Assembly (NCBI RefSeq): GCF_029961185.1
Contig: NZ_JASBQQ010000003.1
Location: 1 to 64,000 of the forward strand
DNA from: Albidovulum aestuarii
Lineage (GTDB): Bacteria > Pseudomonadota > Alphaproteobacteria > Rhodobacterales > Rhodobacteraceae
Direction: 5' to 3'
DNA: 64,000 nt
Shown here: piece after piece, positions 3,520 to 59,105 of the stretch
How positions within the stretch are numbered: the first letter of the stretch is position 1
How the letters are laid out: each line of letters opens with the position of its first letter
Translations under genes and position numbers: made by a program
The notes under the pieces: generated by a model
What the model was told of the DNA's origin: nothing
What the model saw: the letters and a program-made list of their open reading frames with translations, nothing else
Database searches by the model: none

Positions 3520-3522
3520 GCC

Positions 3523-42588: not shown

Positions 42589-42665
42589 GCACCCGTAGCT
42601 CAGCTGGATAGAGCACCAGACTACGAATCTGGGGGTCAGGAGTTCGAATCTCTTCGGGTGCGCCA
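42589..42665 (+). tRNA. tRNA-Arg (anticodon ACG)
   Basis: A complete 77-nt cloverleaf: acceptor GCACCCG/CGGGTGC, D-arm AGCTCAGCTGGATAGAGC, anticodon stem CCAGA/TCTGG around loop CTACGAA (anticodon ACG), T-loop TTCGAAT, discriminator G and encoded CCA. The element at 42618-53250 is integrated in its anticodon arm, so the T-arm and acceptor 3' half are supplied by the element. The T-stem (AGGAG/CTCTT) differs from that of the displaced copy at 53231. Confidence 0.98.
42618..42637 (+). repeat. attL core in tRNA-Arg
   Basis: The 20-bp sequence agactacgaatctgggggtc, covering the anticodon arm and variable region, is repeated exactly at 53231-53250. It is the left attachment core. Confidence 0.93.
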
Positions 42666-42673
42666 ATAAATTC

Positions 42674-42710
42674 AAAGGCTTAGGCGGAAGCGCCTGAGCC
42701 TTTCCTTTTT
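42674..42710 (+). terminator. Terminator after tRNA-Arg, carried by the element
   Basis: AAAGGCTTAGGCG (42674-42686) pairs with CGCCTGAGCCTTT (42691-42703, one G-T pair), loop GAAG, followed by CCTTTTT. It ends the tRNA transcript and lies inside the integrated DNA. Confidence 0.85.
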
Positions 42711-42712
42711 GC

Positions 42713-42734
42713 GGGCTACCACCGGGCTACCACC
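42713..42734 (+). repeat. Two tandem 11-bp repeats, left arm sites
   Basis: GGGCTACCACC occurs twice with no gap (42713-42723, 42724-42734). The same unit occurs three times near attR. Probably integrase arm-binding sites. Confidence 0.75.
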
Positions 42735-42739
42735 GTGTG

Positions 42740-43012
42740 CGATTTCGCGAGGTTTCTAGCGCAGGATTGGCGGCAGGAAAGAATCAACAATCCGCGCGCC
42801 GGGAAAGCGCAGACGGGGAACCCGTCGCGTAAAATTTGGCTTTTCGCAATTCCGTGAAAAAACGGGGTCAGCCTCAGCATCAAACTCAAAACCGGAAACT
42901 CAGCGATCCGCGCTCGCAGATGGCCACTAAGATCGGCCTTGCCGCTCTGATCTGACATAGCCCAGGCCGGGCGCTGGGCGGTGCAGGAAAAATGGGAAGC
43001 TACAAAAAGCGT
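42740..43012 (+). other. Gene-poor left segment of the element
   Basis: No ORF here is convincing: an 80-codon minus-strand frame (42716-42958) runs into the arm repeats and lacks a good ribosome site. No repeats or hairpins stand out before the GGTAAC cluster. Confidence 0.5.
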
Positions 43013-43121
43013 GTTACCTCTGTTACCTTGTTACCAATACATGTAACTATATGTTTTTAAACACTATTACTCGGCATTTTTGGTAACAGGTGAGGTAACG
43101 CGCCCGTCCGCTCTTGTTACC
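43013..43121 (+). repeat. GTTACC/GGTAAC cluster 1 (putative origin iterons)
   Basis: GTTACC occurs at 43013, 43022 and 43030 (steps of 9 and 8), then GGTAAC at 43082 and 43094 and GTTACC at 43116, around an AT-rich stretch (43036-43081). The triple is the reverse complement of the one at 51686-51708, matching 22 of 23 bases. The pattern suggests iterons of a replication initiator. Confidence 0.7.
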
Positions 43122-43245
43122 TTCCGCGAAGGCAAAAAATTCCTCAATTCCCTCTCTCTGAGGCGCGGAAAGTGCCGAAACCGCGACCCCCTATACACAG
43201 AAAAAACCAATAAAAATACGGCTTTAGCTAAAAATTCCCTATTGA

Positions 43246-43270
43246 CAAAAAAAATCCCCACATGCGAGGG
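43246..43270 (-). terminator. Minus-strand terminator in the left segment
   Basis: On the minus strand CCCCTCGCATGTGGGG is followed by A and eight T. The stem is short, but the U-run is long. It could end leftward transcription coming from 43951-44639. Confidence 0.45.
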
Positions 43271-43592
43271 GTGCGGGTCTGCGGCTCGCGGCCCCGTGAA
43301 CTTTTGACCCGCCCCCCCCTTGCCGATGTAGCCCCAAGTTTGCACCAAAACCCTGCCTTACTGCGCCCAAAATGTATCCGTAAGGAGCTGGCGAACGGTG
43401 CGCGATCGACCACCCTGCGGATTTCGCCAGGAAAGCACCAGATCCGGTATAAAGTCGGACCAGAAGGCGCATGATCCCGTTGCCTGAAGCCTGACCGCGC
43501 TACGCAGGCGAAAGTCTGTGCATTGGCGAACTCGATTATTCCGGCAGCTCGCAGTTTAGGCTTTGGGTTTCATTTAGCTGCACGAAACACAT

Positions 43593-43658
43593 GCGCCTTG
43601 CGCCCCCGTATACGCCTAAACCCCGGAAGGACCCAAAGGGGGTTTAGGGCGAGGCGCG
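43593..43658 (+). other. Long imperfect palindrome, possible structured RNA or origin
   Basis: CCTAAACCCC (43615-43624) pairs with GGGGTTTAGG (43639-43648). Outside it GCGCCTTGC pairs with GCGAGGCGC, giving a nested structure of about 65 nt in a 0.8-kb stretch without convincing genes (43130-43950). It might be a small RNA, a single-strand origin or a regulatory site. Confidence 0.4.
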
Positions 43659-43950
43659 GACGGCCCGCAAGCAGCCGGTCGTGCCGGGTTTCGTCTACTT
43701 CAAGGATATGTACGGTTGATCTTGGCGAAGCGCCGGGGGAGGCCACAGCGGCGCGACAAGAACTTGCCCCTGCCGGGGCGTGGGGCGCTGGCAGCGGCAG
43801 ATCAGAAAGTAAGATCGAGACAGGCCAGCCTGCACAGCGCTGTGTGGCCTTCTCGGGCGCAGGCTCAGCCAGGCAGAAAAGAGGGCGAAATAGCAAAGCC
43901 CCACGCGCTGGGAGGCGACGCAGGGCTTGCAGGATGACGGGGCGGACAGA

Positions 43951-44295
43951 TTAGACAGGCCGGTCTCCCAGTATGGCAAGGGCGTTCTCGGTAAGGAGCT
44001 TCTGTTGGGGATCGCCCCAGAAGTCGAGGCCATTGGCCACCACGATCTTGACCGCTAGACCATGAACCGTTCCGGCGCGGGCATTCATAATCATATCCTC
44101 GATTTCCCAGAGGCGCTTTTCACCACTCTTCCAAAGCGCGGAATCCATGCTCATGGTCTCGCCGTCCAGGTCAGACTTGAGCGCTCGCCATTCCCGATAG
44201 TGGCCCAGCAATTCACCATCCGCCACCGCCGCAGCAGAGGCCATGCAATCAAGATCGCGAATGGTGACGGGGCGGTCATAGGGATCGGGTTTCAT
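43951..44295 (-). CDS. Hypothetical protein of the element
   Basis: 114 residues from the ATG at 44295, preceded by GAAGGAAA. Acidic and helical (ELLGHYREWRALKSDLDGETM, KSGEKRLWEIEDMIMNARAGTVHGLAVKIVVA). No family recognised. It lies 26 bp after the upstream minus-strand gene and so is in the leftward pair controlled from the 44640-44739 region. Confidence 0.65.
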   Translation of the reverse strand: MKPDPYDRPVTIRDLDCMASAAAVADGELLGHYREWRALKSDLDGETMSMDSALWKSGEKRLWEIEDMIMNARAGTVHGLAVKIVVANGLDFWGDPQQKLLTENALAILGDRPV

Positions 44296-44321
44296 CGGTG
44301 GGTTTCCTTCGCGATGCGGGA

Positions 44322-44639
44322 TCAAGCGGCGCGCGCCAGAGCGGGGCGCTGGGCGGCTTCACGGGCTTTCGCCTCGGCCAGCACTGTGCGGAGCGCGGAA
44401 AGCTTTTGCATTCCATCCCAGCCGAGGCGATCAGCGTTTTCCATCGCGACGATTTGGGCGCGGATGCTCTCGACCGAGCGCGCGGCCGTGCGGGCCGCTT
44501 CCTTGGCCTTCGCCCATGCCTTGCGCAGCGCCGCAGCGAACAGGCTGCGCAGCTGGTGGCGGGCATAGCCCAAAAAGGTAAACACGTTCTTTGCATCAGC
44601 CCAGGCGGCTTTCAGGATTTCGGAGCGATTGTAAGTCAT
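44322..44639 (-). CDS. Small phage-type hypothetical protein
   Basis: 105 residues from the ATG at 44639. It starts MTYNRSEILKAAWADAKNVF, resembling short proteins of alphaproteobacterial prophages, and continues as an Ala/Lys/Arg-rich helix (RKAWAKAKEAARTAARSVESIRAQIVAM). Function unknown; a nucleic-acid-associated role is possible from the composition. Divergent from the HTH gene across an inverted-repeat control region. Confidence 0.6.
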   Translation of the reverse strand: MTYNRSEILKAAWADAKNVFTFLGYARHQLRSLFAAALRKAWAKAKEAARTAARSVESIRAQIVAMENADRLGWDGMQKLSALRTVLAEAKAREAAQRPALARAA

Positions 44640-44658
44640 TTGCTTGCCCTTTTGTTTG

Positions 44659-44726
44659 TGTGCTGTTAGCATAACTATGGGGCTTATAGCATATGCTGTC
44701 AACCCATTTAGTATGCTAACAGCACA
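44659..44726 (+). promoter_or_regulatory. Inverted-repeat operator region between divergent operons
   Basis: TGTGCTGTTAGCATA (44659-44673) is the exact reverse complement of TATGCTAACAGCACA (44712-44726). A central AGCATATGCT palindrome (about 44688-44697) shares the GCATA core. The region separates the leftward pair from the HTH-headed operon and is probably where the HTH protein binds. Confidence 0.75.
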
Positions 44727-44739
44727 AAATGAGGTAAGC

Positions 44740-44976
44740 ATGACTCCTGAGCAGTTCCGAATGGCCAAAGCAGCGCTGGGCGTGAGCAACCCCGAGTTGG
44801 CCGAATTGACCGGGCTTCATCGAAACACGTTGAACAAGCTCGACAAGGGCGAGGGGAAAGTTTCGACGGTGCAGCTTGTGCGCCTTACCCTAGAGGCCAA
44901 GGGCATTCAGTTCCTTGAAGGCGGGCAGGTTGCCGCCGGGCCGGGCGTTGCCATCGGTGAACGGGGTGCCGAATGA
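44740..44976 (+). CDS. Small HTH (XRE-like) regulator
   Basis: 78 residues from the ATG at 44740, which follows GAGGTAAG; an in-frame extension from 44644 would run through the operator. The HTH is MTPEQFRMAKAALGVSNPELAELTGLHRNTLNKLDKG, then a short tail LTLEAKGIQFLEGG common in small XRE-type regulators. Likely represses its own operon and the divergent pair. Its stop overlaps the next start (ATGA). Confidence 0.85.
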   Translation: MTPEQFRMAKAALGVSNPELAELTGLHRNTLNKLDKGEGKVSTVQLVRLTLEAKGIQFLEGGQVAAGPGVAIGERGAE

Positions 44977-45503
44977 GCCTCTTTGCCACGCTTTCCAGCA
45001 ACGAGTTGATTTCGCTTGGGGTCTCTGGCGTATCTTTGGTTGTGTCGGCATTTCTTGCCGGCTGGACGGTCTATCGTGACGTAATTCAGAAGCCGAAGTT
45101 TCGTGTAACCATCGGCGTGAAGAAGGTTCATCAAGGCGGTTTGCCGGAAATCGGGCCGGACATCTACATTGAGGCGCTGAATTTAGGACCGCTTCCAAAT
45201 CGGATCGGCGTCCCGTATGCAACGCCTTCATGGTTTAGAAGAAGAGTGCTTCGAAAAGAGGCAGCATTTATCGGATACGACCACCGACATATAGCCCATA
45301 CTGCGACGGGCCAACGGGTGGAAGTCGGAGACAGCGCTACGTTCGTCCTGCCTTTGGATAGCGAGTTCATAGACGAACCGAACTTCAGCCGGATTGGCGT
45401 AAGCGACGGTTTTGGACGGGTTCACTGGTCAACTCGCGCAAACTATCGGCGCGCGCAGGCGGATGTGCGTACTAGCCGTGTGCGAGCAGAGAAGGTTTCA
45501 TAA
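44973..45503 (+). CDS. Membrane-anchored protein of unknown function
   Basis: 176 residues: one N-terminal TM (about 10-31, ELISLGVSGVSLVVSAFLAGW) and a soluble, mostly beta domain (KPKFRVTIGVKKV, PDIYIEALNLGPLP, GDSATFVLPLDSEF, IGVSDGFGRVHWS). The pattern suggests an Ig-like beta sandwich probably on the cytoplasmic side. No family name is known to me. It lies between the HTH and PemK-like genes, overlapping the first by 4 bp and 2 bp before the second. Confidence 0.7.
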   Translation: MSLFATLSSNELISLGVSGVSLVVSAFLAGWTVYRDVIQKPKFRVTIGVKKVHQGGLPEIGPDIYIEALNLGPLPNRIGVPYATPSWFRRRVLRKEAAFIGYDHRHIAHTATGQRVEVGDSATFVLPLDSEFIDEPNFSRIGVSDGFGRVHWSTRANYRRAQADVRTSRVRAEKVS

Positions 45504-45505
45504 CA

Positions 45506-45904
45506 GTGCCTATCAGCTTCCACCCGCGCGCCGGGCAAATCCTTATGTGCGACTTCAGAGGCTTCCAAGTGCCGGAAATGGTCAAGGTGCGACCCGTCAT
45601 GATCATATCCCCAAGGCTTCCGTATCGTGGAGACATTGCCGCCATCGTGCCGTTGAGCCTGACAGCACCGCTTCACAACCTTCCGTTCAACGTGCGTCTG
45701 TCCCGAAACTACAACCCGCTCGAAGCCGATGATTTGCCGGTCTGGGCGAAATGCGACATGCTGATGAACCTCAGCATTCGGCGGCTGGAAGGCTTCAAGG
45801 TCGGACGGCGTAAGTGGGAAACTCCGCAGGCGACCGGGGAAGATCTGAAGGCGGTTCGGGCAGGCATACTTGCCGCGCTGGGCTTTGCCGCTGGTGGGGA
45901 GTGA
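45506..45904 (+). CDS. PemK/MazF-family toxin-like protein
   Basis: 132 residues with a GTG start 2 bp after the previous stop. It has the PemK/MazF barrel pattern: RAGQILMCDFRGFQVPEMVKVRPVMIISPR, AAIVPLSLTAPLHNLPFNVRLS and VWAKCDMLMNLSIRRL. Proven members cut mRNA, but activity cannot be told here. No classical antitoxin is adjacent; the HTH protein two genes upstream is the only candidate partner. Confidence 0.8.
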   Translation: MPISFHPRAGQILMCDFRGFQVPEMVKVRPVMIISPRLPYRGDIAAIVPLSLTAPLHNLPFNVRLSRNYNPLEADDLPVWAKCDMLMNLSIRRLEGFKVGRRKWETPQATGEDLKAVRAGILAALGFAAGGE

Positions 45905-46048
45905 TCACTCGCCACTTGATTTAGTCACGAGTAAGCACTAATTACTAGGTCGTATCCCGGTCATCGGGCTTTAAGACCTAGAGCACTAGGCAGGCTGTTC
46001 AGCGAACGATGACAAGTTCAGAGCAGCCTAGATATTGTCAAAGTCCCG

Positions 46049-46076
46049 AAGCCCCGCCTCGTGCGGGGCTTTGTGC
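46049..46076 (+). terminator. Terminator-like hairpin before the HEPN gene
   Basis: AAGCCCCGC (46049-46057) and GCGGGGCTT (46063-46071), followed by TGTG. It separates the PemK-like operon from the HEPN gene. The 190-bp gap also holds an imperfect AGGCTGTTC/GAGCAGCCT inverted repeat. Confidence 0.6.
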
Positions 46077-46097
46077 ATAGTGGGGAGGCGTAGGAAA

Positions 46098-46652
46098 ATG
46101 CCTGAAGACATTTGGGACATTCGACGCAAGGCACCGGCCCACTTCTGGGCAAAGGCGGACAACGCCCGGTTTGCTGCATACGTCCTGAGCCATCAGACAG
46201 CCCTGGCGCAAAAGGCAGCTTCGGCGGAATCGGGATACATGGCCAGCACCGGGATTGCACTAACTGAAGGGTTCCTGAGGGAAAGCTCCATCGCGATGGA
46301 GCTGATCTTAAAGGCTGCGATCTTAGCACTGAGCGATGAGGTGCCGCCGCCGTTCACACATGACGTACCTCGGCTTTGGCGTGAGGCGAAACTGCCGAAA
46401 CCATCCCGAGACGACAGTTACCGGTTGCAGGAAATGGCGATGCTGCTGGATTGGTCCGGCCGTTATGGCGCGCCACGGTCAAACGAGAAGTTGGAGAGGC
46501 AACTTGCCGATCTAAAGCGGTTTGAACGAACCGAGAGACTTGGGACGCTCAGAATCCGGAAGAATATCGTTCTGACATGGGAAGACTTCGATCGTTTGTA
46601 TCAAGTCGCGGCCGCGGCCTACTTCGAGCGCTTGGACAGCCGAACGCCATAA
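46098..46652 (+). CDS. HEPN-domain-like protein
   Basis: 184 residues from the ATG at 46098 (GGGGAGGCGTAGGAAA upstream). All-helical, with HEPN-like elements: RESSIAMELILKAAILAL (about 75-92), a THDVPRLW motif, and LDWSGRYGAPRSNEK, close to the RYP-type motif of HEPN proteins. HEPN domains often act as RNases in toxin or phage-defence systems; I cannot confirm the RxxxxH active site. Its 3' end overlaps the convergent gene at 46619. Confidence 0.6.
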   Translation: MPEDIWDIRRKAPAHFWAKADNARFAAYVLSHQTALAQKAASAESGYMASTGIALTEGFLRESSIAMELILKAAILALSDEVPPPFTHDVPRLWREAKLPKPSRDDSYRLQEMAMLLDWSGRYGAPRSNEKLERQLADLKRFERTERLGTLRIRKNIVLTWEDFDRLYQVAAAAYFERLDSRTP

Positions 46653-46870
46653 ACCTTGCGTGCATGCGCTTCCGCCTCTGTCCGGCTCATACCGCCGTCA
46701 TACTCCATTATCGCGGCGCGCTCTTCGGCCAAGTCGCGGGCAAGGGCCTTATCCTTGTCGGTCGCACCCACCGCCCCCGGAGAGACCGCGCTAGGCACTT
46801 CGCCAGAAGTGGGTGAAAGGCGGGCAAAAACGCGCCGCAACGCCGCCCAATCCGGTCCCCGCTCAGTCAT
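46619..46870 (-). CDS. Small hypothetical protein, end of the replication operon
   Basis: 83 residues from the ATG at 46870, overlapping the DUF927 gene stop by 8 bp. Sequence starts MTERGPDWAALRRVFARLSP and has an acidic/helical C-terminus (ERAAIMEYDGGMSRTEAEAHARKVYGV). This tail resembles short regions found after primases or in phage proteins of alphaproteobacteria, function unknown. Last gene in a chain of overlapping genes. Confidence 0.65.
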   Translation of the reverse strand: MTERGPDWAALRRVFARLSPTSGEVPSAVSPGAVGATDKDKALARDLAEERAAIMEYDGGMSRTEAEAHARKVYGVRLSKRSK

Positions 46871-48737
46871 CGACCACGCCATCTTCGCCCATAAGCGCTG
46901 CATAGTTCAGTTGATAGAGCCGCACTGCCGTCTTTTCGCTCGGCACCTTGAAGGGCTTAGACAGCGCCGTGATCTTCTGGCCCTTTTGCGTTACCTCATG
47001 GCGGACGATCACACCTTCATCGGCGAGCCCGGCCAGAACAGCATTGCGATCTAGACCGGCCAGAAGCTCGGCCACTCCCGAAGCGTGAAGGAAAAACACC
47101 GGGGGCGCATCGGGCTGTTCCTCATCGCCGCGCTGCACATAGCCAATCGCGTTCGTCCTTACCACTGTACGCGGATCGTAGCGCCAGGGCAGGAAGCGGC
47201 TGTGTCCGTCGACCTCTACAGCCCGCCTGATCCGTGCTTGCGCGTCTGCGACTTCGCTGGACCCAACTCCACCCCGTTCCGCCAGCCAGTCACGAAAGCA
47301 ACGCATGGCTGCTTCGGCCGCCACGCCTTCTGGCCAGCCTGTGATGCCCAGCGCCGAGGCCAATTCGCCTGCCGCCGCCACCAGGGCGAAGCGATCCGCC
47401 ACCCTGCGCACCTGCCCGTCGGCGTTGGACGGCACCGCTTTCACAGTGAAATCCTTGCGAAGCGCATCGATTCCATCCCGCATCCGCGCCAGATCTGCCA
47501 CGACATGCTTCAGGAATTCGCGCGCTGCTGTGCCGTAGGTTCGCCCCGCCGCCGCCTTCAGCGACTGGGCAAAGATCGCGGCATCAGGCACGCCATGCAG
47601 ATCCTCAAAAAGACCGAGGCCAGCCCCGGCATCCGCCCTCAGGTCGATCACGCGCACTTCCATGCCCGCCGCGATCCGCCCACCGGCTTCCCTGATCTTG
47701 TCCGAAAGGCCCATTTCGCCGTTCGACAGGAAGATAAGCCGCCACTCATGGCTCTTGCGGGCCTGCCCCTCCCGTCCGGCGCGGGCCTTGCCGACGCCGT
47801 TGCCGAGCATATAGGCTGCGGCCCCGGCCGCTTTCGGCTCTACCTGAGACAGCTCGTCCAGACACAGGCAGGCGTCCTTGTGGAGCGCCGCCAGCGCCTC
47901 AAGAGCATTGTCCGTCGCCCGCCAGCTCTGAACATATCCCCGGACGCCGCCACCGCCCCAGACAGAGCCCGCCACGGCCAGAACCGTTGACTTGCCGGTG
48001 GACGAACCGCCGCGAAAATGAAAGCCGCCGCCGTCCTCGCCCTTGAGCGCTAGGAGCGGCGCGGCGAAGGCAGCCGAGATCGCCAGCAGCAAGCGGGAAT
48101 TGCCCAGCGCCCGCGCTGCCACCTCATTGCGCCATTCCTCAAGTCGGCCAGAGAGATTCAGCGCATGGTCAAGGCGCTCGACACTTTGAAGGATAACCCG
48201 CTCGGCACTGGCGTCCGCGCTGATTGTCTGATCCGGAAACACGTAGGCCGAACCGTGCCAGCCGATGCTCGGCACACATCGCGCGCAATCCTCCGGATCT
48301 GCCGAGATCAGATATTCCATCAGCCAATCGCGCCATTTCCGGCCGGCGCCGGGTACAGGCTCCCAGCCGAGGCGAAGTAATTCCGCGCGAATACTCTCCC
48401 CCGATCCAGCGAAGAGCGCCGCAGGCATTGCCCAATGGTGGGCTATGCCGTCCCGGTCCACCACTTCCAGCAACCGGCCGTGATCTTCGCTGTCAACCGT
48501 CCTTGTCCGGGCGAGGATTCGCAATTCCGACCCGAAGGCGACCCAGCGTTTCTTTGTCTCGCCGTCCTGCCCTTCGCTTTCCACCTCGCGCCATATCTGC
48601 CCGGCGTCAACCTTGAACGGGAAGAAGCGAGACCTCTTGCGCTGGGCCTTCCCGTTCCGCCCAGCGCCGCCTTTCTTCGCCTCCGCCGCGGTTTTTGCAT
48701 TGATCACCTGGGCGGCAATCTCGTCTTCGCCGCTCAT
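46863..48737 (-). CDS. DUF927 helicase-like ATPase
   Basis: 624 residues. After a basic N-terminus (about 20-40) comes the DUF927 domain: PSIGWHGSAYVFPDQTI (156-172), a P-loop GGSSTGKST at 243-251 and a Walker B LCLDELS at 291-297. DUF927 proteins are predicted superfamily-3-like helicases of phages and integrative elements, usually encoded next to a Toprim protein as here. It probably unwinds the element's origin. Starts by ATGA overlap with the Toprim gene. Confidence 0.85.
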   Translation of the reverse strand: MSGEDEIAAQVINAKTAAEAKKGGAGRNGKAQRKRSRFFPFKVDAGQIWREVESEGQDGETKKRWVAFGSELRILARTRTVDSEDHGRLLEVVDRDGIAHHWAMPAALFAGSGESIRAELLRLGWEPVPGAGRKWRDWLMEYLISADPEDCARCVPSIGWHGSAYVFPDQTISADASAERVILQSVERLDHALNLSGRLEEWRNEVAARALGNSRLLLAISAAFAAPLLALKGEDGGGFHFRGGSSTGKSTVLAVAGSVWGGGGVRGYVQSWRATDNALEALAALHKDACLCLDELSQVEPKAAGAAAYMLGNGVGKARAGREGQARKSHEWRLIFLSNGEMGLSDKIREAGGRIAAGMEVRVIDLRADAGAGLGLFEDLHGVPDAAIFAQSLKAAAGRTYGTAAREFLKHVVADLARMRDGIDALRKDFTVKAVPSNADGQVRRVADRFALVAAAGELASALGITGWPEGVAAEAAMRCFRDWLAERGGVGSSEVADAQARIRRAVEVDGHSRFLPWRYDPRTVVRTNAIGYVQRGDEEQPDAPPVFFLHASGVAELLAGLDRNAVLAGLADEGVIVRHEVTQKGQKITALSKPFKVPSEKTAVRLYQLNYAALMGEDGVVDD

Positions 48738-49633
48738 GCGTCACCCCGTAGTACATCGTTGAAATCTGCCCCCGGTTTCGGCGGATAGATCACCGAAACC
48801 GCCCGGCCTTCAGCTTCCAGCCGCCCGGCCGTCACCTCAGCCGCCGCCAATCCCGCCTCGTCATGGTCGGCGGCGATGATTACGACCTCGGCCACGGGTA
48901 GCGGCGGCAGGATCAGACCTTTCAAGCCTGAGGTCGAGAGGGTGGCCCAGACGGTCAGGCGAGAGGCTCGCGAAATCGATAGAGCGGTCTCTATCCCCTC
49001 AGCCAGAGCGATGACCGGGCCGTTCGGTCCAATGCGCACAGCGCCACCTGCGGACGGTCCTAGCATCATCTTGGCGGGCGTTACCTCGGCCTTACCGCTG
49101 CCATCGGGCCGCAGATACGTGCGATGGATGCCCAGCGCCTCACCTTTCGGACCCCTTATCTGAGCCAGCATGGCCGGCAGATGCACACCCGAAGGTGTAT
49201 GCAGCGCAGCCGGATGAAAGCGCAGCGTGGCGCGTAACTTGGCGAAGCGCAGGCCATGAATTCCCCTTGCCTCAAGATAGGTTTGCGCGGGCGTTCCTTC
49301 GCAGTTTACGCCTGCTGAGAAGAGATCGTGGGCAGTCTTCAGGCGCTGGACTTCCTTTCGCCGAACCTCGGCCCGCTGCCGTTCCGCCTCCGCCGGATCT
49401 GGTGCGGCGCTGGGCAAGCCCCGGCCCTCGATCAAGTTAAGGTTCCGCAGCTCGTTGAGAACTGCACAGCCGGATTTGTGGCAATGCACCAGAAGTCGCC
49501 CGCCGCCGTCGCTCAGTGAAAGGGCGCGCTGATCGCGGCGGCCTTCAGGCTGGCAGATTGGGCAGGGGGCGAGGCCAGAACCATGCCGCCAGTCGCCGCC
49601 TAGCGCTCGTGTCACGCGCTCGGCCTCGGTCAT
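48734..49633 (-). CDS. Toprim-domain primase-like protein
   Basis: 299 residues: an N-terminal zinc finger (Cys24, Cys27, then His50/Cys51/Cys56) like DnaG and P4-type primases, a basic middle helix (85-105), and a Toprim domain with ALAEGIETALS (Glu212) and VIIAADHDEAG (Asp256/Asp258) for metal binding. It probably makes RNA primers at the element's origin together with the DUF927 ATPase. Overlaps both neighbours by 4 bp. Confidence 0.85.
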   Translation of the reverse strand: MTEAERVTRALGGDWRHGSGLAPCPICQPEGRRDQRALSLSDGGGRLLVHCHKSGCAVLNELRNLNLIEGRGLPSAAPDPAEAERQRAEVRRKEVQRLKTAHDLFSAGVNCEGTPAQTYLEARGIHGLRFAKLRATLRFHPAALHTPSGVHLPAMLAQIRGPKGEALGIHRTYLRPDGSGKAEVTPAKMMLGPSAGGAVRIGPNGPVIALAEGIETALSISRASRLTVWATLSTSGLKGLILPPLPVAEVVIIAADHDEAGLAAAEVTAGRLEAEGRAVSVIYPPKPGADFNDVLRGDA

Positions 49634-49986
49634 TCCCGCGATCCCTTAAGTGCATTTTCCAAACGCCGCCACTCGGCCAGGGCCGCGCGAATTCCGTCAA
49701 CCTCGACCATGAACAAGCGCCAAGACGCGATTTCCGACCGGATGAATTTGACCTTGGGGAAGAGCGCGGCCCGATTCATGGCTGTCGCCCCGTCTTCGGT
49801 ATTGTCCCCGCCTTCCGGCGTGTTGGTCGGTAAGACCTTTCCCGCCAGTTCGGCCAGTTCGGCGCTAAGGGTCGCAATTTCGTCGTGGGCTTTTTCCGCC
49901 AGTTCCCGCGCCTCGGCGGCTTCAGCGGAGGCCGCTTCAACGTGCCGTCGGACGCTCTTGCCGTCCCACCCCTCTGGCCCGCTCAT
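49630..49986 (-). CDS. Coiled-coil hypothetical protein
   Basis: 118 residues from the ATG at 49986. Residues 12-48 are a likely coiled coil (AASAEAAEARELAEKAHDEIATLSAELAEL); the C-terminal half is helical (FIRSEIASWRLFMVEVDGIRAALAEWRRLENAL). ATGA overlaps with the AlpA-like gene before and the Toprim gene after place it in the replication operon. Role unknown. Confidence 0.7.
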   Translation of the reverse strand: MSGPEGWDGKSVRRHVEAASAEAAEARELAEKAHDEIATLSAELAELAGKVLPTNTPEGGDNTEDGATAMNRAALFPKVKFIRSEIASWRLFMVEVDGIRAALAEWRRLENALKGSRE

Positions 49987-50201
49987 TTCGCCACCTCTTC
50001 CGAGGTGGAATTTACACGGCGGGCCTCGATCCAAGCGCGCAGATCGGCCACCCGGTAGCGGACAGAACGGCCGATCTTGACCATCGGCGGTCCGTCGCCG
50101 CGTACGGCGGAGACCTCAAGAAAACGCCGCGACAGGCCGAAATTCACCTCTACTTCGGCACGGGAAAGCAGCCGATCTGAAGAAATAACTTTGTCTTGCA
50201 T
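49983..50201 (-). CDS. AlpA/excisionase-like DNA-binding protein
   Basis: 72 residues: a winged HTH of the MerR/AlpA type (LLSRAEVEVNFGLSRRFLEVSAVRGDGPPMVKIGRSVRYRVADLRAWIEARRV). Related proteins regulate integrase genes or act as excision factors in P4 and other islands. It is the first gene of the overlapping operon; a 110-bp gap with a perfect palindrome lies upstream. Confidence 0.8.
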   Translation of the reverse strand: MQDKVISSDRLLSRAEVEVNFGLSRRFLEVSAVRGDGPPMVKIGRSVRYRVADLRAWIEARRVNSTSEEVAK

Positions 50202-50268
50202 GGTTTCGCATCCTTTTGCCAGTTGACGTTAGGCAAAGGTGCAGACGCGGATCCGAGTTGAATAGGCA

Positions 50269-50287
50269 GCACGATTTCAAATCGTGC
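50269..50287 (-). promoter_or_regulatory. Perfect 19-nt palindrome upstream of the AlpA-like gene
   Basis: GCACGATTT-C-AAATCGTGC, about 68 bp before the AlpA-like start. No U-run follows on either strand, so an operator is more likely than a terminator. Confidence 0.55.
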
Positions 50288-50311
50288 GGGGGGTTTAAAT
50301 AAGTGGCTAGC

Positions 50312-51325
50312 TCAAAGACACGCCTTCAGCGCTGTCACCAGATCGTTGGATTGCAAACACCGCTTCCATTTTGCAGTTCCGGACGCCTTCCAAGCCTCCG
50401 GAGCGGCACCTGTCCATATACGATCGCGGGCTCTAAATCCGAAACCGCAAGCCTCTAAAGCGGCCATTGCGTCATCCAGTCTCATCTTAACACCAGGGTG
50501 CGCGGCAGCCATCTGACGGATAGCATTCATAGCTCGGGTTTCTTGCCCCACCGTTCCAAGCATAGAGCTCGACCTGTCTATGATCTGTTCGGCAGCATCT
50601 TTGGCTGCTATGAATCGAAGTGGTGAAAACACCTCGATCCGATCAATCCATGACGATCCAGAACGGCCCGGAAACCGAAACTGATCAATTTCGAAGTGCG
50701 ATGCGTTTAGATTAACCACTTTCCCATGACGTTCCCCAAACGCGAGGAAACGGCCATCAACGATAAATCGAACCACTAAACTGAACATCCTACGCCCAAA
50801 TTCTTTGCGTGGGGCGATCGACAAGGGCTCGCCGTAGCCGGAATCGAAGCGTTCAACTGTGTCGGGGAACATCTCGTCAATCATGTCGGGCAACAATCCG
50901 ACTCTAACTTCAATCAGGTCGCAGAGCGCCCGCCAGGGCTTCTCACTGCGGGTCCAAGGAAACTGTTCTTTCCCACGAGCTAGATCGTTGGCCAGCGCAG
51001 ATCGCACTTCTTCAGAGACCTCACAGACCGGAAATTTCACCTTGGCAGGTTCAGCCACAAAGGTGGCGAAGTCAGCGGAGATTTCGCGCTCGCGTCTCCG
51101 CATTTCATTGCGATCTTCAGTGTTACAGGTTGCGGCCTCAGGCCGATAATCCGTCATCTTCTTGTCCGCGAGAAAGGTAGCAATCTCGGCCGAGACATCC
51201 GGTAATTGCCGCCTTTCAAGATCAGTCTGGAGCGCATCCACACGATCCAGTATCTCCCTAGAGTGGTCGGACAACTCGGCTCTTAGAGCCCCACTCGTAT
51301 CGCGTACCATTCGAATCGGAGACAT
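50312..51325 (-). CDS. Hypothetical protein of 337 residues
   Basis: Start at ATG 51325, behind GAGGGG. The N-terminal part is charged and helical (SDHSREILDRVDALQTDLERRQLPDVSAEIATFLADKKM); the middle is more globular (WRALCDLIEVRVGLLPDMIDEMFPDTVERF, FGRRMFSLVVRFIVDGRFLAFGERHG). No signal peptide or TM, and no known motif. Wording of the codons looks more AT-rich than the flanking replication genes, consistent with cargo. Could be a defence or regulatory gene, but nothing in the sequence shows which. Confidence 0.65.
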   Translation of the reverse strand: MSPIRMVRDTSGALRAELSDHSREILDRVDALQTDLERRQLPDVSAEIATFLADKKMTDYRPEAATCNTEDRNEMRRREREISADFATFVAEPAKVKFPVCEVSEEVRSALANDLARGKEQFPWTRSEKPWRALCDLIEVRVGLLPDMIDEMFPDTVERFDSGYGEPLSIAPRKEFGRRMFSLVVRFIVDGRFLAFGERHGKVVNLNASHFEIDQFRFPGRSGSSWIDRIEVFSPLRFIAAKDAAEQIIDRSSSMLGTVGQETRAMNAIRQMAAAHPGVKMRLDDAMAALEACGFGFRARDRIWTGAAPEAWKASGTAKWKRCLQSNDLVTALKACL

Positions 51326-51595
51326 GTGGCGCACCCCTCGCAAGGCCCTCGCACAGAGGTGCGCGCGGCAGCGGGGTGCGAGTTCGCCCGCGTTCGGGGA
51401 TCAGCCTAGCCGCGCGGTTCGATAGTAGGTTCAGGCACGATGAAAATGCAAGGTAGCAAGTCTGGCTAGCTACAACATCTAGTGTTGCGGAAAGTGCGCA
51501 AAAACTACCCGATTACGCGCTGAAACGCCCAACGCCGCCGACGGGCTCAATTGCGCGGAATTGCCTTTGCTATCATAGGCTCACATTTGCGGTGG
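51326..51595 (+). other. Non-coding stretch before GGTAAC cluster 2
   Basis: No convincing gene on either strand. The plus-strand frame from 51551 is the shadow of the integrase gene. A small CAACA/TGTTG hairpin near 51473 is the only local structure noticed. Confidence 0.5.
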
Positions 51596-51708
51596 GTTAC
51601 GGTAACAAGATCTGAAAATCTGTTTCCTGTGGCTTCGAAATTTGTTACCGGAAAAACAACTAATTATCATTGGGTTAGACGGAAAGGTAACGAGGTAACA
51701 GAGGTAAC
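51596..51708 (+). repeat. GGTAAC/GTTACC cluster 2 (putative second origin part)
   Basis: GGTAAC at 51601, GTTACC at 51644, then GGTAAC at 51686, 51694 and 51703 (steps of 8 and 9), plus a half copy at 51596. The triple is in opposite orientation to that of cluster 1 with the same spacing. It lies upstream of the 337-residue gene and downstream of the integrase gene. Confidence 0.7.
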
Positions 51709-51796
51709 GCCATTTTCAGGCACAGACAGAAAGAGCAACGGCGAAAAACACGGCGAGCGACCACAATATGTAGTCAACCCGCCCAGCGCTGGGCGA

Positions 51797-53068
51797 TCAC
51801 CCTTTCCGGTGCAGCGGCACCACTTCCGCGCCACCTTCCGGCCCCTTCAGGTGAGAGGCCAGGACTCCGCCAACCTGATCGGCTGCGACCTTCAGAGGAT
51901 CGGTGGCGAGGTGCGCATAGCGGGCCGTGGTTTTCACGTCCTTGTGCCCCAGCAGTGCACCGATGATCGGCAAAGATGCCCCGCCCGCGACCATGACAGA
52001 TGCGAAGGAATGGCGCAGGTCATGCAAGCGCACATCCGGCAGTCCGGCCACCTTTCGGATAATGCCCCAAGGATCTTTCAGGTTCACCAGCGGGGTTTCC
52101 GGATCGCTGTAATCACCGCCCCGGATTACGTAACCCTTTCCATCTGGCGGCATGTCGAGCCCACGCAGGACCTCAAGAGCGGCAGGCGGCAGCATCAGCG
52201 GCTTTCGGCCGGTCTTGCTGTCCGGCAGGTTAGCCCGGCCCGCCTGCCAGTCGATCCATTCCCAGCGCAAACCGAGGATTTCGCCGCGCCGCGCACCTGT
52301 GAAGATCAGAAGCCGGACTGCCGCCACCGCCCACTTGCTGACGCGCACAGATTTGGCCTTGCCGTCCTCAACGATCGTCAGTTCGCCGCGCTCGGCATTG
52401 CCCAGCGCATCGCCCAGGACGGCAAACTCGGCTGGGGACAGGAACCGTTCCCGAGCGGTTTCCCGGTATCTCTCCACCTCATTGCAAGGGTTGGAGTGCT
52501 TTTCGCGGTAACCCCACGTCTCTGCCAGCGAAAAGGCTTTGGACAAGGCGGAGCGGGCACGGTTTGCCGTGGTGGGCGTCTTGGCGAGGCGGGCATGAAA
52601 ACGCGCAACGTCCGCTTCTGTCACGTCCGACACTTTCAGCTTGGCGAGGGCGTCCGTGCAGATGATCCGATTCACCAGGTCCGCGACATAGGCGGCAGTG
52701 CTGGCCTTGTTCCGCACCCGCACATGGCTTTCCAGATATTGCCCCATCAGCTCGGCCACGGTCGGAGCCTTGCGTTTGTCGATCTTATCGCCCGCAGGGT
52801 CACCACCGGCTGCAACCTCGGCCGCCCAGCGCTGAGCAATCTCGCGCGCCTGATCCGGCGTCACAGCGCCATGCTGCCCGATCACGCCCCAGCGCACCCG
52901 ACCCGCTCGGCCGCCGCCGACGCGATACTTCAGGACGTAGCTCTTACCGCCAGTCGGCCCAACGCGAACACCAAAGCCCGGCACGTCGGTATCCCACGCC
53001 ACGTAACGGGAACCCGTCGCCTTCAGGGCGTCCACAGTACGCTTCATGATCTTGATGCTTACGGCCAT
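51797..53068 (-). CDS. Tyrosine recombinase integrase
   Basis: 423 residues. An N-terminal arm-binding domain (DUF4102-like; VPGFGVRVGPTGGKSYVLKYR), a core-binding SAM-like domain (about 105-190), and the catalytic domain with Arg260 (TGARRGE), Lys285, His349 and Arg352 (HDLRHS), His375 (LLGHKD) and Tyr384 (ARYAHL), so all catalytic residues are present. AAGGAAAAGAG precedes the ATG. Sits 160 bp inside attR and should drive integration into tRNA-Arg. Confidence 0.96.
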   Translation of the reverse strand: MAVSIKIMKRTVDALKATGSRYVAWDTDVPGFGVRVGPTGGKSYVLKYRVGGGRAGRVRWGVIGQHGAVTPDQAREIAQRWAAEVAAGGDPAGDKIDKRKAPTVAELMGQYLESHVRVRNKASTAAYVADLVNRIICTDALAKLKVSDVTEADVARFHARLAKTPTTANRARSALSKAFSLAETWGYREKHSNPCNEVERYRETARERFLSPAEFAVLGDALGNAERGELTIVEDGKAKSVRVSKWAVAAVRLLIFTGARRGEILGLRWEWIDWQAGRANLPDSKTGRKPLMLPPAALEVLRGLDMPPDGKGYVIRGGDYSDPETPLVNLKDPWGIIRKVAGLPDVRLHDLRHSFASVMVAGGASLPIIGALLGHKDVKTTARYAHLATDPLKVAADQVGGVLASHLKGPEGGAEVVPLHRKG

Positions 53069-53081
53069 CTCTTTTCCTTGC

Positions 53082-53114
53082 AGGCTACCACCCGGCTACC
53101 ACGGGGCTACCACC
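53082..53114 (+). repeat. Three tandem 11-bp repeats, right arm sites
   Basis: AGGCTACCACC, CGGCTACCACG and GGGCTACCACC follow each other without gaps at 53082, 53093 and 53104, in the same orientation as the two copies near attL. They lie just upstream of the integrase start, so integrase could also bind here to repress itself. Confidence 0.75.
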
Positions 53115-53230
53115 GAAGGCGAAACTTCACGCAACCCCATGCAAGATAGATGAGGTTTAAAGCCCTGCTTTTCAAGTGTAAATGTGGCTTCATGCAATTC
53201 GGCGCAAGATGCGGAAAATTAACAACCCTA

Positions 53231-53250
53231 AGACTACGAATCTGGGGGTC
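53231..53250 (+). repeat. attR core
   Basis: Exact copy of the 20-bp core at 42618-42637. Integration would have separated the tRNA 3' end that now follows it. Confidence 0.93.
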
Positions 53251-53278
53251 GGGCGTTCGAATCGCTCCGGGTGCGCCA
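53251..53278 (+). pseudogene. Displaced original 3' end of tRNA-Arg
   Basis: 28 bases equivalent to the T-arm and acceptor 3' strand through CCA. They differ from the functional copy at four places, and all four lie in the T-stem as two compensated base pairs (A-U to G-C and A-U to C-G). No 5' half precedes it, so it is not a functional tRNA. Confidence 0.85.
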
Positions 53279-53425
53279 TCCCCCCCGGCTTGGCAATCTC
53301 CTTGGGATCCGAAGCGCGCGCCGTCTGGCCCGTGAACCGGCCTTTAATCAACCGTGGCTCTACGCGGCAAACGCTGCTGCCGCGCAATCAGGGGTTTTGC
53401 CTGAGTCCGGCCAATATGCTGCGGC

Positions 53426-54043
53426 TCAAACCGGATTTGCGGCCACGGTCAGGAAGGTCACGCTTTCCGTCGTGACCGATTTCACGCCGTGCCGCAGTTG
53501 CGCATCGAAACTCAGACAGTCGCCCGGTTCCATATCGAATGCGGTTCCTCCGCAAGAATAGATGCATCCGCCCTCAACAACGGTCAGCAGAACATATCCG
53601 CGCGCAAAGTAAGTCGGGTGGGTTCCGTTCTCGGCCCTTCGTAGGGTGACCCGGGCGGCGGAGAAATTCATTGAATTGTCGTTGAACTTTGCCAGAACTC
53701 GGTAGTCATGGATATGGTCGGGTGCAAAACGCTTTGCGACCAGACCTTCGCCCGCCTTGACGAAGTGGATATCGGCGGTCTGGATCGTGTGCTGAAAGAA
53801 TGAGATCACCGGAACGGAAAGCGCCTTCGCCAGCGCCTCCAGTGTCGAAAGCGAGGGCGAGACCTGTGCGTTCTCGATGCGCGAGATCATGGCCGAGGAC
53901 ACGCCGGAGGCGCGGCCAAGGTCACGGATGGCGAGACCGGCGGCCACGCGCTGTCGCCACACTGCAAGCGCCACCGCGCCGCCGATACCCAATGGGTCCT
54001 GAAACGCTACGATCTCTTCAGGGGCATCCGCGCTGTCGGTCAT
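53426..54043 (-). CDS. XRE-cupin transcriptional regulator
   Basis: 205 residues: an N-terminal XRE HTH (about 25-82: WRQRVAAGLAIRDLGRASGVSSAMISRIENAQVSPSLSTLEALAKAL) and a C-terminal cupin (about 120-205: GGCIYSCGGTAFDMEPGDCLSFDAQLRHGV). Such proteins regulate amine and amino-acid catabolism, the cupin sensing a small molecule. It lies 129 bp after soxG on the same strand, so it may control sarcosine oxidation. Confidence 0.88.
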   Translation of the reverse strand: MTDSADAPEEIVAFQDPLGIGGAVALAVWRQRVAAGLAIRDLGRASGVSSAMISRIENAQVSPSLSTLEALAKALSVPVISFFQHTIQTADIHFVKAGEGLVAKRFAPDHIHDYRVLAKFNDNSMNFSAARVTLRRAENGTHPTYFARGYVLLTVVEGGCIYSCGGTAFDMEPGDCLSFDAQLRHGVKSVTTESVTFLTVAANPV

Positions 54044-54172
54044 CTGCCCTCCGTTCCGTTTCCCGCGCGACCAGCCGTAACATGGCCCTGCCGAGCCATG
54101 AAACCGGATTTATCGCTTCGGCGCCCCGGCGGGATGCCCCCCGCCATTGTCCTGCTCTGCATTGATTGGCAA

Positions 54173-54670
54173 TCAGGTACTGGCACGTCGAAGGCTCTCC
54201 TCGAACCAATCGGCATAACTCCGATCCACCGCAATCTCGTATCCGGCCGCAATCCTGCGGGTCGCTGACCGGATGCCAAACGCCTCCGTCCACGCCGCGC
54301 CGTCCTGCGGAAAGATGTCGGGATGAAGGTCGAGCGGCGTGACGACCGCCATGACTTCGGTCGCATCGGGGCCCGTGACGGCAAAGAAGGTCAGCGTGTC
54401 GGATACAAGAGTGACAGAAAGGTCATCAGGCGCTTGCTCTGACCGAAGTGCCTTGGCCAGCGTCGCTTCCTCGGCTAACGCCGCCATCAGCAGCCAGCGA
54501 TCGGGACCCGTCCAACAAAGACCGCGACCGGCTGCTTCCATCCGGCTGTTCGGCCGGTCCGGGAAGGGGGGCAGCGCCGTGCCGCACCACGCCGCAAGCG
54601 CCGTTGCCGTGCCCTTCAGATCGAACAGGGCGCGCAGTGGAAGGCGGGTGATGGTGACGTCGTATGGCAT
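54173..54670 (-). CDS. soxG: Sarcosine oxidase gamma subunit
   Basis: 165 residues, a GcvT-like fold: SRMEAAGRGLCWTGPDRWLLMA, SVTLVSDTLTFFAVTGPDATEVMA, HPDIFPQDGAAWTEAFG and SYADWFEESLRRA at the end. The gamma subunit is part of the heterotetrameric enzyme that oxidises sarcosine to glycine, formaldehyde-tetrahydrofolate and H2O2. The ATG at 54670 coincides with the soxA stop. Confidence 0.9.
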   Translation of the reverse strand: MPYDVTITRLPLRALFDLKGTATALAAWCGTALPPFPDRPNSRMEAAGRGLCWTGPDRWLLMAALAEEATLAKALRSEQAPDDLSVTLVSDTLTFFAVTGPDATEVMAVVTPLDLHPDIFPQDGAAWTEAFGIRSATRRIAAGYEIAVDRSYADWFEESLRRAST

Positions 54671-57603: not shown

Positions 57604-57850
57604 GGCGCACCTCCGTGATCTCATGCGTCACGGTATGGCGGCAGATCGTCAGCCATGACCCGCAACCGCGCGCATGCCACCAGCGCTCCTCAACCAGACC
57701 CATCGGATTGGGCGGCACGGTCAGCCAGTCGACCCAATCGGCATCGCTCACCGCTGCCGGATCAGACGGGCGCGGGGTCAGGGCCGGGCCGCCGAAGCTG
57801 AACTCGCTCTCGTTCCTCGGGCCGCAGAAGGGGCAGTCGATCAGCAGCAT
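57593..57850 (-). CDS. soxD: Sarcosine oxidase delta subunit
   Basis: 85 residues from the ATG at 57850. MLLIDCPFCGPRNESEFSFGG at the N-terminus and WWHARGCGSWLTICRHTVTHEI at the C-terminus give the Cys/Cys/His/Cys zinc site of SoxD. It holds the alpha and beta subunits together in known structures. Lies 4 bp after soxB. Confidence 0.93.
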   Translation of the reverse strand: MLLIDCPFCGPRNESEFSFGGPALTPRPSDPAAVSDADWVDWLTVPPNPMGLVEERWWHARGCGSWLTICRHTVTHEITEVRLGR

Positions 57851-57854
57851 CGCT

Positions 57855-59105
57855 TTACCTCGCCGTCGTCGTGCCGGTCTCGACCACATAGTCGAGATTA
57901 CGGAAACGGTTCAGCCCGAAGGGCGCGACCAGCGGGTCGGGTCGCCCGGTGGCGATCAGATGCGCGAGGCCCGCACCACCTGCCGGGATCGCCTTGTAGC
58001 CACCCCACCAGCCCGCGCTGACGATCAGTCCCGGGATGTCGGTCATGGACACAATCGGGCTCGCATCATGCGCCATGTCGAGATGCCCGCCCCATTGCCG
58101 CATCAGCTTCAGCCTTGCGAAGGCAGGAAACAGCTCCAGCAGTGCCGAGACCGTATCTTCGAAGACCGATTGCTTGATATCGCGGCGAAAGGACTGGCCC
58201 AGATCCGTCGCCCCGCCGATCACCAGTTCACCCTTGTCCGACTGGCTGAGATAAACGCCAAGATCCGGGCAGTTGACGATGACATCGACGACAGGCTTCA
58301 CCGGTTCCGAGACGAAGGCCGTGAGGTTGATGGTGCGGAGCGGCAGCCGCAGACCCGCCGTCTCGGTCAACGTCGTCGTGTGGCCCGACACGGCCAAGGC
58401 CACGGTCTTTGCCCGGACCGTGCCGCGCGGCGTCTCGACGCCTTCGATGGCGCCGTCCGGGCCGCGCAACAGTCTCGTCACCGGTGTCTGCTGATGGATC
58501 GCCACGCCCATCGCACTTGCCGCGCGGGCATAGCCCCAGGCGACCGCGTCATGGCGGTTGACCGCCGCGTCTGTATGGACTGCGGCGCCAAGGATCGGCA
58601 GGCGACTGTCCGGCCCGCCGCCGGTCAATGCAGGCACCCGGCGGCGCAGTTCGGCGACCGGGATATCCTCATAGGTCGAGCCGTAGATATCCATGATCAG
58701 CTTTCTGCGGCGGCGGTCGCGCACCATGCCCCAGGTCTGCAGCACATCGACCATCGTGCGCTTCGAATGCATCATGTTGAAGTTCAGATCACGCGTGAGA
58801 CCGTCGAACATCGCCACCGATTTGACGTAGAAGGGGATCGACTCGTCGCGCATGTAGTTCGACCGGATCGTCACCGTATTACGTGCGACATTGCCGCCAC
58901 CCAGCCAGCCGGCCTCCAGCACGGCGACATCGGTCAGCCCGTGCTCCTTCGCTAGATAATAGGCCGCCGCCAGCCCATGCCCCCCCGCTCCGACAATGAT
59001 CGCCTGATACCGGTCCCTGAGCGGCGGGCTCTGCCATGCAGGCGCCCAGCCCCGGTGACTGCCAAGAGCGTGACGGAGAAGCGACAGGGCGGAATAGCGT
59101 TGCAT
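57855..59105 (-). CDS. soxB: Sarcosine oxidase beta subunit
   Basis: 416 residues from the ATG at 59105 (MQRYSALSLLRHAL); an ATG 9 bp earlier is possible. FAD-binding Rossmann motif AIIVGAGGHGLAAAYYLA, with NVARNTVTIRSNY, and the C-terminal GWWGGYKAIPAGGAGLAHLIATG. It carries the covalent FMN and FAD of the demethylation site in this enzyme family. First gene of soxBDAG, a route for using sarcosine from betaine or choline degradation. Confidence 0.92.
   Translation of the reverse strand: MQRYSALSLLRHALGSHRGWAPAWQSPPLRDRYQAIIVGAGGHGLAAAYYLAKEHGLTDVAVLEAGWLGGGNVARNTVTIRSNYMRDESIPFYVKSVAMFDGLTRDLNFNMMHSKRTMVDVLQTWGMVRDRRRRKLIMDIYGSTYEDIPVAELRRRVPALTGGGPDSRLPILGAAVHTDAAVNRHDAVAWGYARAASAMGVAIHQQTPVTRLLRGPDGAIEGVETPRGTVRAKTVALAVSGHTTTLTETAGLRLPLRTINLTAFVSEPVKPVVDVIVNCPDLGVYLSQSDKGELVIGGATDLGQSFRRDIKQSVFEDTVSALLELFPAFARLKLMRQWGGHLDMAHDASPIVSMTDIPGLIVSAGWWGGYKAIPAGGAGLAHLIATGRPDPLVAPFGLNRFRNLDYVVETGTTTAR

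Follow-up and report, generated by a model that had tools for sequence, protein, structure and literature searches.

In the 64,000-nt stretch of Albidovulum aestuarii DNA that was analysed (the window; contig NZ_JASBQQ010000003.1, positions 1 to 64,000 of the forward strand) an integrated element spans positions 42618-53278. Its ends are formed by a 48-nt direct repeat, the copies of which are 92% identical and lie 10,613 bp apart. Within it, two clusters of the short repeat (iteron) GGTAAC, designated A and B, are located about 8.7 kb apart on either side of the genes for a Toprim primase and a DUF927 helicase. From one attachment site (att) to the other the order is att, integrase (int), cluster B, AlpA, Toprim, DUF927, cluster A, att. 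The features are as follows.

42618..42665, plus strand: left attachment site (attL), end of the tRNA-Arg gene (42589-42665), one copy of the 48-nt direct repeat
43013..43121, no strand: iteron cluster A, from the outer to the inner side +++ (46-nt gap, 76% AT) -- +; at the position of crr in phage P4, proposed distal half-origin
46863..48737, minus strand: DUF927 helicase (PF06048, E 2.6e-78), proposed initiator for both clusters
48734..49633, minus strand: Toprim primase (DUF7146 and Toprim_3)
49983..50201, minus strand: AlpA/excisionase-like helix-turn-helix protein (HTH_17, phrog_66)
50312..51343, minus strand: 343-aa open reading frame (ORF) between cluster B and AlpA, family unassigned
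51601..51708, no strand: iteron cluster B, from the outer to the inner side +++ (36-nt gap, 67% AT) - +; at the position of ori in phage P4, proposed int-proximal half-origin
51797..53068, minus strand: tyrosine integrase (PF00589 and PF13356) with an Arm-DNA-bind_3 domain
53231..53278, plus strand: right attachment site (attR), second copy of the 48-nt direct repeat

The integrase gene, the 343-aa ORF (no Pfam or PHROG match at E<=0.01), the AlpA-like gene, a small ORF between the latter and the primase gene, and the primase and helicase genes are all on the minus strand; the cargo is on the plus strand. Cluster B begins about 90 bp 3' of the integrase stop codon. Cluster A is found 3.7 kb beyond DUF927, between the cargo and the att at the tRNA side.

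The two mirrored triples reported in a preliminary description of this DNA were exact: GTTACC at 43013, 43022 and 43030 in cluster A (spacings 9, 8) and GGTAAC at 51686, 51694 and 51703 in cluster B (spacings 8, 9). After reverse complementation the 23-mers of both triples are identical in 22 of the 23 bases. Each triple had also been described as being followed by inverted copies, which is correct for the first copies after the triple and incorrect in cluster B, where the last copy has the triple's own orientation. Beyond its triple, cluster A contains two inverted copies, 43082(+) and 43094(+), and then one direct copy, 43116(-); cluster B contains an inverted copy, 51644(-), and the direct copy 51601(+). 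The gaps are 67-76% AT compared with 40% for the region.

GGTAAC occurs 22 times in the window and 11 of these copies are inside A and B, whereas 100 dinucleotide shuffles gave a mean of 8.7 (standard deviation 3.0, maximum 16). Genome-wide, pairs of GGTAAC separated by 1-8 nt were found only 8 times in 4,242,458 bases, 5 times in A and B and 3 times elsewhere (reversed-pattern control in the same genome: 4). A comparable density of triples elsewhere in the genome, which would have spoken against the preliminary description, was not seen. Across 295 genomes of the family, three GTTACC copies with 1-4 nt between neighbours were present 4 times: A and B account for two occurrences, and genomes G026 and G328 have one each (reversed-pattern control: 7 matches in 4 genomes). 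In a scan that was blind to the motif, the score of the A/B pair was reached in 0 of 100 shuffles, likewise in each of the 7 elements tested, and five further 10.7-kb pieces of the window contained no pair. Both GGTAAC clusters are genuine, confined to one integrated element and far above chance.

Paired clusters in related DUF927 elements

Close relatives of the DUF927 helicase are encoded in Paracoccus onubensis (L021, 71%) and Pseudoruegeria (L022/L029, 67%). Searches of 394 and 385 genomes yielded 19 and 16 genomes, respectively, with a match at E <= 1e-60, the window's own genome being among them in both cases, and 20 regions were chosen from these matches. A scan of viral contigs with a 12-sequence alignment gave 145 relatives, 80 of which were taken in; viral-contig scans with a single protein or with three sequences gave no relative. 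Together with six plasmid and phage records the sample amounted to 109 DUF927 loci, of which 75 remained distinct at 90% identity of DUF927. A pair was scored where one 6-mer formed two clusters that were separated by more than 1 kb and accepted as iterons. Paired clusters were present in 19 of the 75 distinct elements, hereafter the split elements: the window, L021, L029, L073, L074, L078, L080, L100, L101, L109, L110, L111, L114, L116, L142, L144, L164, L170 and L177. The motif-blind scan detected pairs with at least 5 copies per cluster in 18 of the 75 loci (17 of the 19 and L106) and with at least 4 copies in 25; five block-shuffled sets gave 0 pairs at the higher threshold and 0, 0, 1, 0 and 0 at the lower one. 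L106 was left uncounted since its pair is situated at the two contig ends and was taken for a putative terminal repeat, and L075, L086, L088, L104 and L108 were left uncounted because of other k-mers or weak second clusters. In 16 of the 19 elements cluster B starts 11-142 bp past the int stop codon. The start of cluster A is 28-72 bp 3' of DUF927 for 12 elements and 0.6-6.2 kb further away for the other 7, the window included.

The iteron differs among elements (GGTAAC, TGTAAC, TGGTAC, GTGCTA, GGGAAC and others) and is the same in both clusters of one element. The motifs of the window (GGTAAC) and of L021 (TGTAAC), its nearest relative, differ, for instance, and each of the two has a matching pair of clusters. 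Summed over the elements, A and B shared 110 copies, whereas permutation gave a mean of 43.8 and a maximum of 75, and 110 was reached in 0 of 10,000 permutations. At least 4 copies were shared in 69 of 342 cross-element comparisons, i.e. some elements have the same motif. One motif per element, drifting jointly in both clusters, is the trace that would be expected from one protein binding both sites.

The polarity of the clusters is conserved as well. The direct array is on the outer side of both clusters in all 19 elements, the clusters being mirrored. Read from the outer (int/att) side towards the replication genes, the direct array gives way to a gap, beyond which an inverted copy and then further direct copies are found, typically with start-to-start steps of 9, 9, 54, 23 and 9. 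Of the spacing, the retention of which in relatives had been at issue in the preliminary description, the 8-10 bp step of the array is kept, and the motif and the central gap (steps of 32-65) vary. In 37 of the 38 clusters the step from the array to the inverted copy exceeds the step that follows the inverted copy or copies, cluster B of the window being the exception, and in the clade of the window the gap is 67-86% AT compared with about 40% for the region. Within an element the array-to-inverted distances of A and B differ by 0-1 in 11 of the 19 elements and by 9-12 in 6, and by 3 and 23 in the remaining two. Helical phasing is not relied on, being a post hoc observation (naive p 0.006; 0.027 on a thinned set).

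Proteins other than a replication initiator could bind such clusters. Cluster B is upstream of the leftward operon of the 343-aa ORF, AlpA, Toprim and DUF927, as would suit an operator for a regulator (AlpA, XRE) of the operons of the element. That the clusters are operators is nevertheless extremely improbable: cluster A is positioned between the cargo and att, in 12 of the 19 elements it is directly 3' of DUF927, and an array of some six copies around a gap resembles an origin. Arm-type binding by the integrase or an excision factor was also considered, given that the integrase carries an Arm-DNA-bind_3 domain and that cluster A is only 0.1-0.35 kb from the att/tRNA end in the window, L021, L029, L073 and L074. 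A separate repeat was, however, found beside both att ends, in the window at two places.

42714..42733, minus strand: probable integrase arm-type repeats GTGGTAGCC, 2 copies with an 11-bp step
53083..53113, minus strand: probable integrase arm-type repeats GTGGTAGCC, 3 copies

This repeat occurs mostly at 11-bp steps (copies beside the att ends: 5 of 5 in the window, 3 of 3 in L021 and in L029, 6 of 6 in L073 and 5 of 6 in L074), and it is constant while the iteron changes between elements. It is regarded as a probable integrase arm site. Because this separate repeat suits the integrase, the arm-site interpretation of clusters A and B was rejected and is given next to no credence; cluster A is next to DUF927 in 12 of the 19 elements, and in P4 the arm repeats are likewise separate from the ori repeats. 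Finally, one cluster could act as the origin while the other controls copy number or handcuffing by titration of the initiator, a use to which iteron plasmids put extra iterons. A titration site would have no need of the central gap, and the full grammar, gap included, is kept in both clusters; this division of roles is regarded as quite improbable.

Contiguous origins and the proposed DUF927 initiator

The 75 loci were classed as 19 split, 4 with cluster B only and 33 contiguous, with 19 left without a class. A cluster of at least 5 copies starts between -20 and +220 bp of the DUF927 stop codon in 47 of the 75, and the contiguous elements that have an integrase on the contig contained no second cluster of more than 2 copies (22 of 22). 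For copy counts and the palindrome test 29 of the 33 contiguous origins were used, L088, L129, L168 and L171 being left out by choice. A mirror partner was present for 228 of their 311 iterons, against 144 on a null in which signs and gaps were shuffled and 156 when signs alone were shuffled. Individually, 18 of the 29 were palindromic at p<0.05 on the sign-plus-gap null, and only 2 on the stricter sign-only null.

In the contiguous origins (e.g. L147, L102, L118, L083) the two halves abut 3' of DUF927, unlike in the split elements, which in the direction from int to DUF927 have the first half, the replication genes and the second half. The grammar of the half-origins is the same and the spacings are similar or identical: the first half of L147 (9, 9, 32, 23, 9) equals A and B of L100 exactly, and that of L102 (9, 9, 56, 22, 9) is close to A and B of L142 (9, 9, 55, 23, 9). 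By their repeats, the contiguous origins look like the split origin in undivided form, each half having the grammar of one cluster.

The predicted structure of the window DUF927 protein (predicted local distance difference test score, pLDDT, 85.4) gave as best matches the helicase Cch of the staphylococcal cassette chromosome (SCC; 5dgk, Foldseek 1.4e-22) and Rep of the Staphylococcus aureus pathogenicity island (SaPI) SaPIbov1 (8tch, 3.7e-19). In a sequence profile search the E values were 6.4e-30 for 8tch and 3.6e-24 for 5dgk. With the C-terminal domain alone (pLDDT 84.5) SaPIbov1 Rep was again the first match, weakly (E 0.0066), followed without significance by assorted folds, several of them winged-helix regulator folds. 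Profile and model agree that the protein is a homologue of the SaPIbov1 Rep and SCC Cch helicases.

In passages of PMC7581432, DUF927 is described as a domain of Cch, Cch as related to SaPIbov1 Rep, and the C-terminal domain of SaPI Rep as recognizing an iteron origin directly 3' of its own gene. According to passages of PMC6092414 and PMC7581432, the origins of SaPIs and of Gram-negative phage-inducible chromosomal islands (PICIs) are 3' of rep and have two iteron sets flanking an AT-rich region; the Escherichia coli PICI origins shown in PMC6092414 always have two sets around an AT-rich region. Oppositely oriented repeats direct two head-to-head hexamers, as stated in a passage of PMC9894130. 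As far as these passages go, the window element resembles the SaPIs and PICIs (SaPIbov1 Rep, EcCICFT073 pri-rep-ori) in having a homologous Rep of the DUF927 kind and opposed iteron sets around an AT-rich melting region, and the Gram-negative PICIs in its int-AlpA-primase-Rep layout. It differs in that their origin is in one place directly 3' of rep, whereas in the window two mirrored places bracket the replication genes. The SCCmec helicase Cch (5dgk) shares fold and family with the window DUF927 protein and belongs to a different kind of element, for which the passages of PMC7581432 describe no paired iteron arrays. A split DUF927 origin was not described in the titles and abstract openings among the matches listed for P4 crr, satellite and PICI themes.

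Taken together, the clusters are probably an iteron origin of the SaPI/PICI type that is split into mirrored halves bracketing the replication genes, both halves being bound by the DUF927 helicase. Once induced, the element would be replicated by its Toprim primase together with its DUF927 protein, acting as an initiator helicase like SaPI Rep. Clusters A and B would be the two mirror-image halves of one bipartite origin; with half B 3' of int and half A beyond DUF927 near att, they would bracket the replication genes. In each half the direct array would face outwards and be followed on its inner side by an AT-rich gap, one inverted copy and additional copies. The helicase, probably via its C-terminal domain (about residues 488-624), would bind the iterons of both halves, open the AT-rich gap and load itself, and replication would fire at the clusters. 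Where a SaPI origin is contiguous, its opposed iteron sets direct a head-to-head pair of hexamers; with the halves split, each of them might load its own hexamer, or they might be looped together. The arrangement would work like P4 ori plus crr.

The same anatomy could be read as two complete and redundant origins, each a self-sufficient one of the SaPI type, whose inverted arrangement is kept because a direct duplicate would be lost by recombination. Each cluster indeed has its own gap with iterons on both sides, and the 23-mers of the window are nearly identical. However, the split elements have on average 6.2 and 5.9 exact copies per cluster compared with 10.8 in the contiguous region (29 elements), so that each cluster has about half the contiguous copy number and resembles one half of the palindrome, and the polarity is fixed in 19 of 19 elements, which is more than redundancy needs. 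Redundant origins are therefore considered unlikely.

In a quick maximum-likelihood tree of the 75 proteins 16 of the 19 split elements are in one group of 22 rows (Shimodaira-Hasegawa-like approximate likelihood ratio test, SH-aLRT, 92; drawn open), which also holds three B-only elements, two without a class and one contiguous element; L109, L111 and L164 are elsewhere. Fifteen contiguous elements form a clade (99) without a split member. The tree neighbours of the split L164 are L102, L104 and L077 (SH-aLRT 91).

Several observations weigh against a single origin that was split into halves. Separating split and B-only from contiguous elements on the tree needs at least 5 changes, and a direction from contiguous to split is not established because the tree was rooted at its midpoint. 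Not every contiguous origin is palindromic: 11 of the 29 do not reach p<0.05 when signs and gaps are shuffled, and L089 (10980-11075, 3' of DUF927) has eleven tandem iterons in one orientation at exact 9-bp steps, being the sole origin of the 29 without an inverted copy. Cluster B occurs without a detectable A in L098, L099, L108 and L125. It is 0.46-1.7 kb from the int stop codon in L109, L114 and L142, and in L109 it is inside the stop-to-stop frame of the DUF927 ORF. In the window, cluster B has only 5 exact copies and an outer gap of the same size as the inner one (42 and 43), in contrast to the other 37 of the 38 clusters. Outside the clade of the window the gap is 43-70% AT against 33-50% for the region, an excess that is often slight and is absent in L111. 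As a general rule, an origin split by the int-att module was dropped: in L080 the halves are far apart on both paths round the circle, if the tRNA-Arg at 1236 is the att.

The DUF927 gene itself consists of two overlapping stop-to-stop ORFs in L078, L080, L110, L114, L116, L125, L142, L144, L170 and L177. The second ORF is in the same relative frame (offset 1) in all ten and the overlap is 152 nt in five; translational coupling or a programmed frameshift may be the cause. A further DUF927 locus, L070 (Photobacterium plasmid NZ_AP024859.1, listed as linear), encodes a protelomerase and a head-maturation protease and is possibly a linear plasmid or phage-plasmid with the same type of origin.

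The integrated element and its surroundings

The succession int, AlpA, primase-rep at a specific att site is that of PICIs. One further feature was found between cluster B and the 343-aa ORF.

51346..51416, minus strand: candidate int-alpA RNA (RF02996), 34.3 bits with a gathering score of 35.8, E 4.4e-4

The block of this candidate is conserved (84% in L029, 89% in L021), and RF02996 was above threshold in L074, the sole one among the 7 loci scanned. The cargo at 44644-46652 encodes Xre-like, PemK/MazF-like and HEPN-like proteins, which are possible toxin-antitoxin or defence genes.

In the window element, protein-family scans detected neither a capsid nor a protease homologue. Homologues of the prohead protease, the HK97 capsid protein or both are encoded by 13 of the 19 split-type elements. 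One of these is L021 from Paracoccus onubensis, in which positions 12459-14343 encode a prohead protease (Peptidase_S78, 1.1e-23) and an HK97-type capsid protein (Phage_capsid, 2.2e-54). By its gene content L021 is a capsid-bearing satellite-like element in Alphaproteobacteria. The window element appears to be an integrated mobile element resembling a phage satellite, and this copy is proposed to live as a satellite, possibly with a helper phage.

In the genome that is closest to the left flank (G001) the match runs up to 42665 and resumes at 59377, i.e. the element is absent. G001 was rejected as a clean empty site because 6 kb beside the element are missing as well. The missing stretch, 53279-59377, contains sarcosine-oxidase-like ORFs and forms a variable region next to the tRNA-Arg site. 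An invertible segment was also rejected, the longest mirrored arms being 43 nt at 79% and no invertase being named by the Pfam and PHROG scans.

Comparison with phage P4

In the preliminary description the clusters had been likened to the two-site origin of phage P4, with an unrelated replication module. The analogy holds and is broader than first proposed, as the pair is present in 19 elements, in the layout of P4 and with a helicase of another family. The P4 record (X51522) has int at 2607-3926(-), attP at 4078-4097, crr at 4291-4590, alpha at 4636-6969(-), ORF88 at 8764-9030(-) and ori at 9086-9809, and labels crr 'cis required region for replication'. Two mirrored iteron sites on either side of the replication genes are common to P4 and the window. 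Round from att, and with ORF88 presumed to be vis, P4 has int, (cII, beta, gop, psu, delta, sid), ori, vis, ..., alpha, crr and att. The order is that of the window, cluster B being at the place of ori and cluster A at that of crr, mirrored around the helicase gene.

From the outer to the inner side P4 ori reads ++ (41) - (24) +++, a polarity that agrees with that of the clusters described here. By the exact six-base core crr reads + (41) - - - +, and by the record's own repeats ++ -- + per crr unit. Both P4 sites have short iterons, an outward array, a gap, and inverted followed by direct copies, as do the DUF927 clusters; the step from the array to the inverted copy is 41 in ori and crr and 32-65 in the DUF927 elements. 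Differences were found too. P4 ori has two outer and three inner copies, whereas the split DUF927 clusters usually have three outer and two inner ones; P4 crr is a tandem of two 120-bp units, and P4 ori also has type 2 repeats. In P4, cII, beta, gop, psu, delta and sid are located between int and ori; in the element analysed here, sid, psu and delta were not among the Pfam and PHROG matches of the scanned proteins, no search having been aimed at these genes. The alpha protein of P4 combines D5_N/DUF5906/Pox_D5 with Toprim_3, whereas in the window the alpha-type D5_N/DUF5906 helicase of P4-like satellites is replaced by DUF927. The window element is not a member of the P4 family, because its helicase is of a different type. 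When the P4 alpha helicase was compared by profile with the DUF927 family, homology was not supported (probability 0.7%, E 0.076).

P4 replication requires both ori and crr in cis. It is tentatively suggested, at somewhat less than even chances, that P4 ori/crr and clusters B/A represent one design, in which the halves of a palindromic origin of the SaPI/PICI type have been pulled apart, and which arose or was kept more than once across unrelated helicases. With one helicase hexamer loaded per half, replication would therefore need both halves in cis, and the requirement of P4 for crr would be explained if this is true.

The apparent oddity of P4, a second cis site in the form of crr, becomes one instance of a recurrent layout, open to comparison among many elements and between two helicase families. 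This offers a concrete hypothesis on the nature of crr, for which the contiguous and split neighbours on the tree (L102, L104 and L077 beside L164) provide a natural test set. In addition, two mirrored arrays of one motif provide a sequence signature with which the origins of satellites can be found and their initiators assigned.

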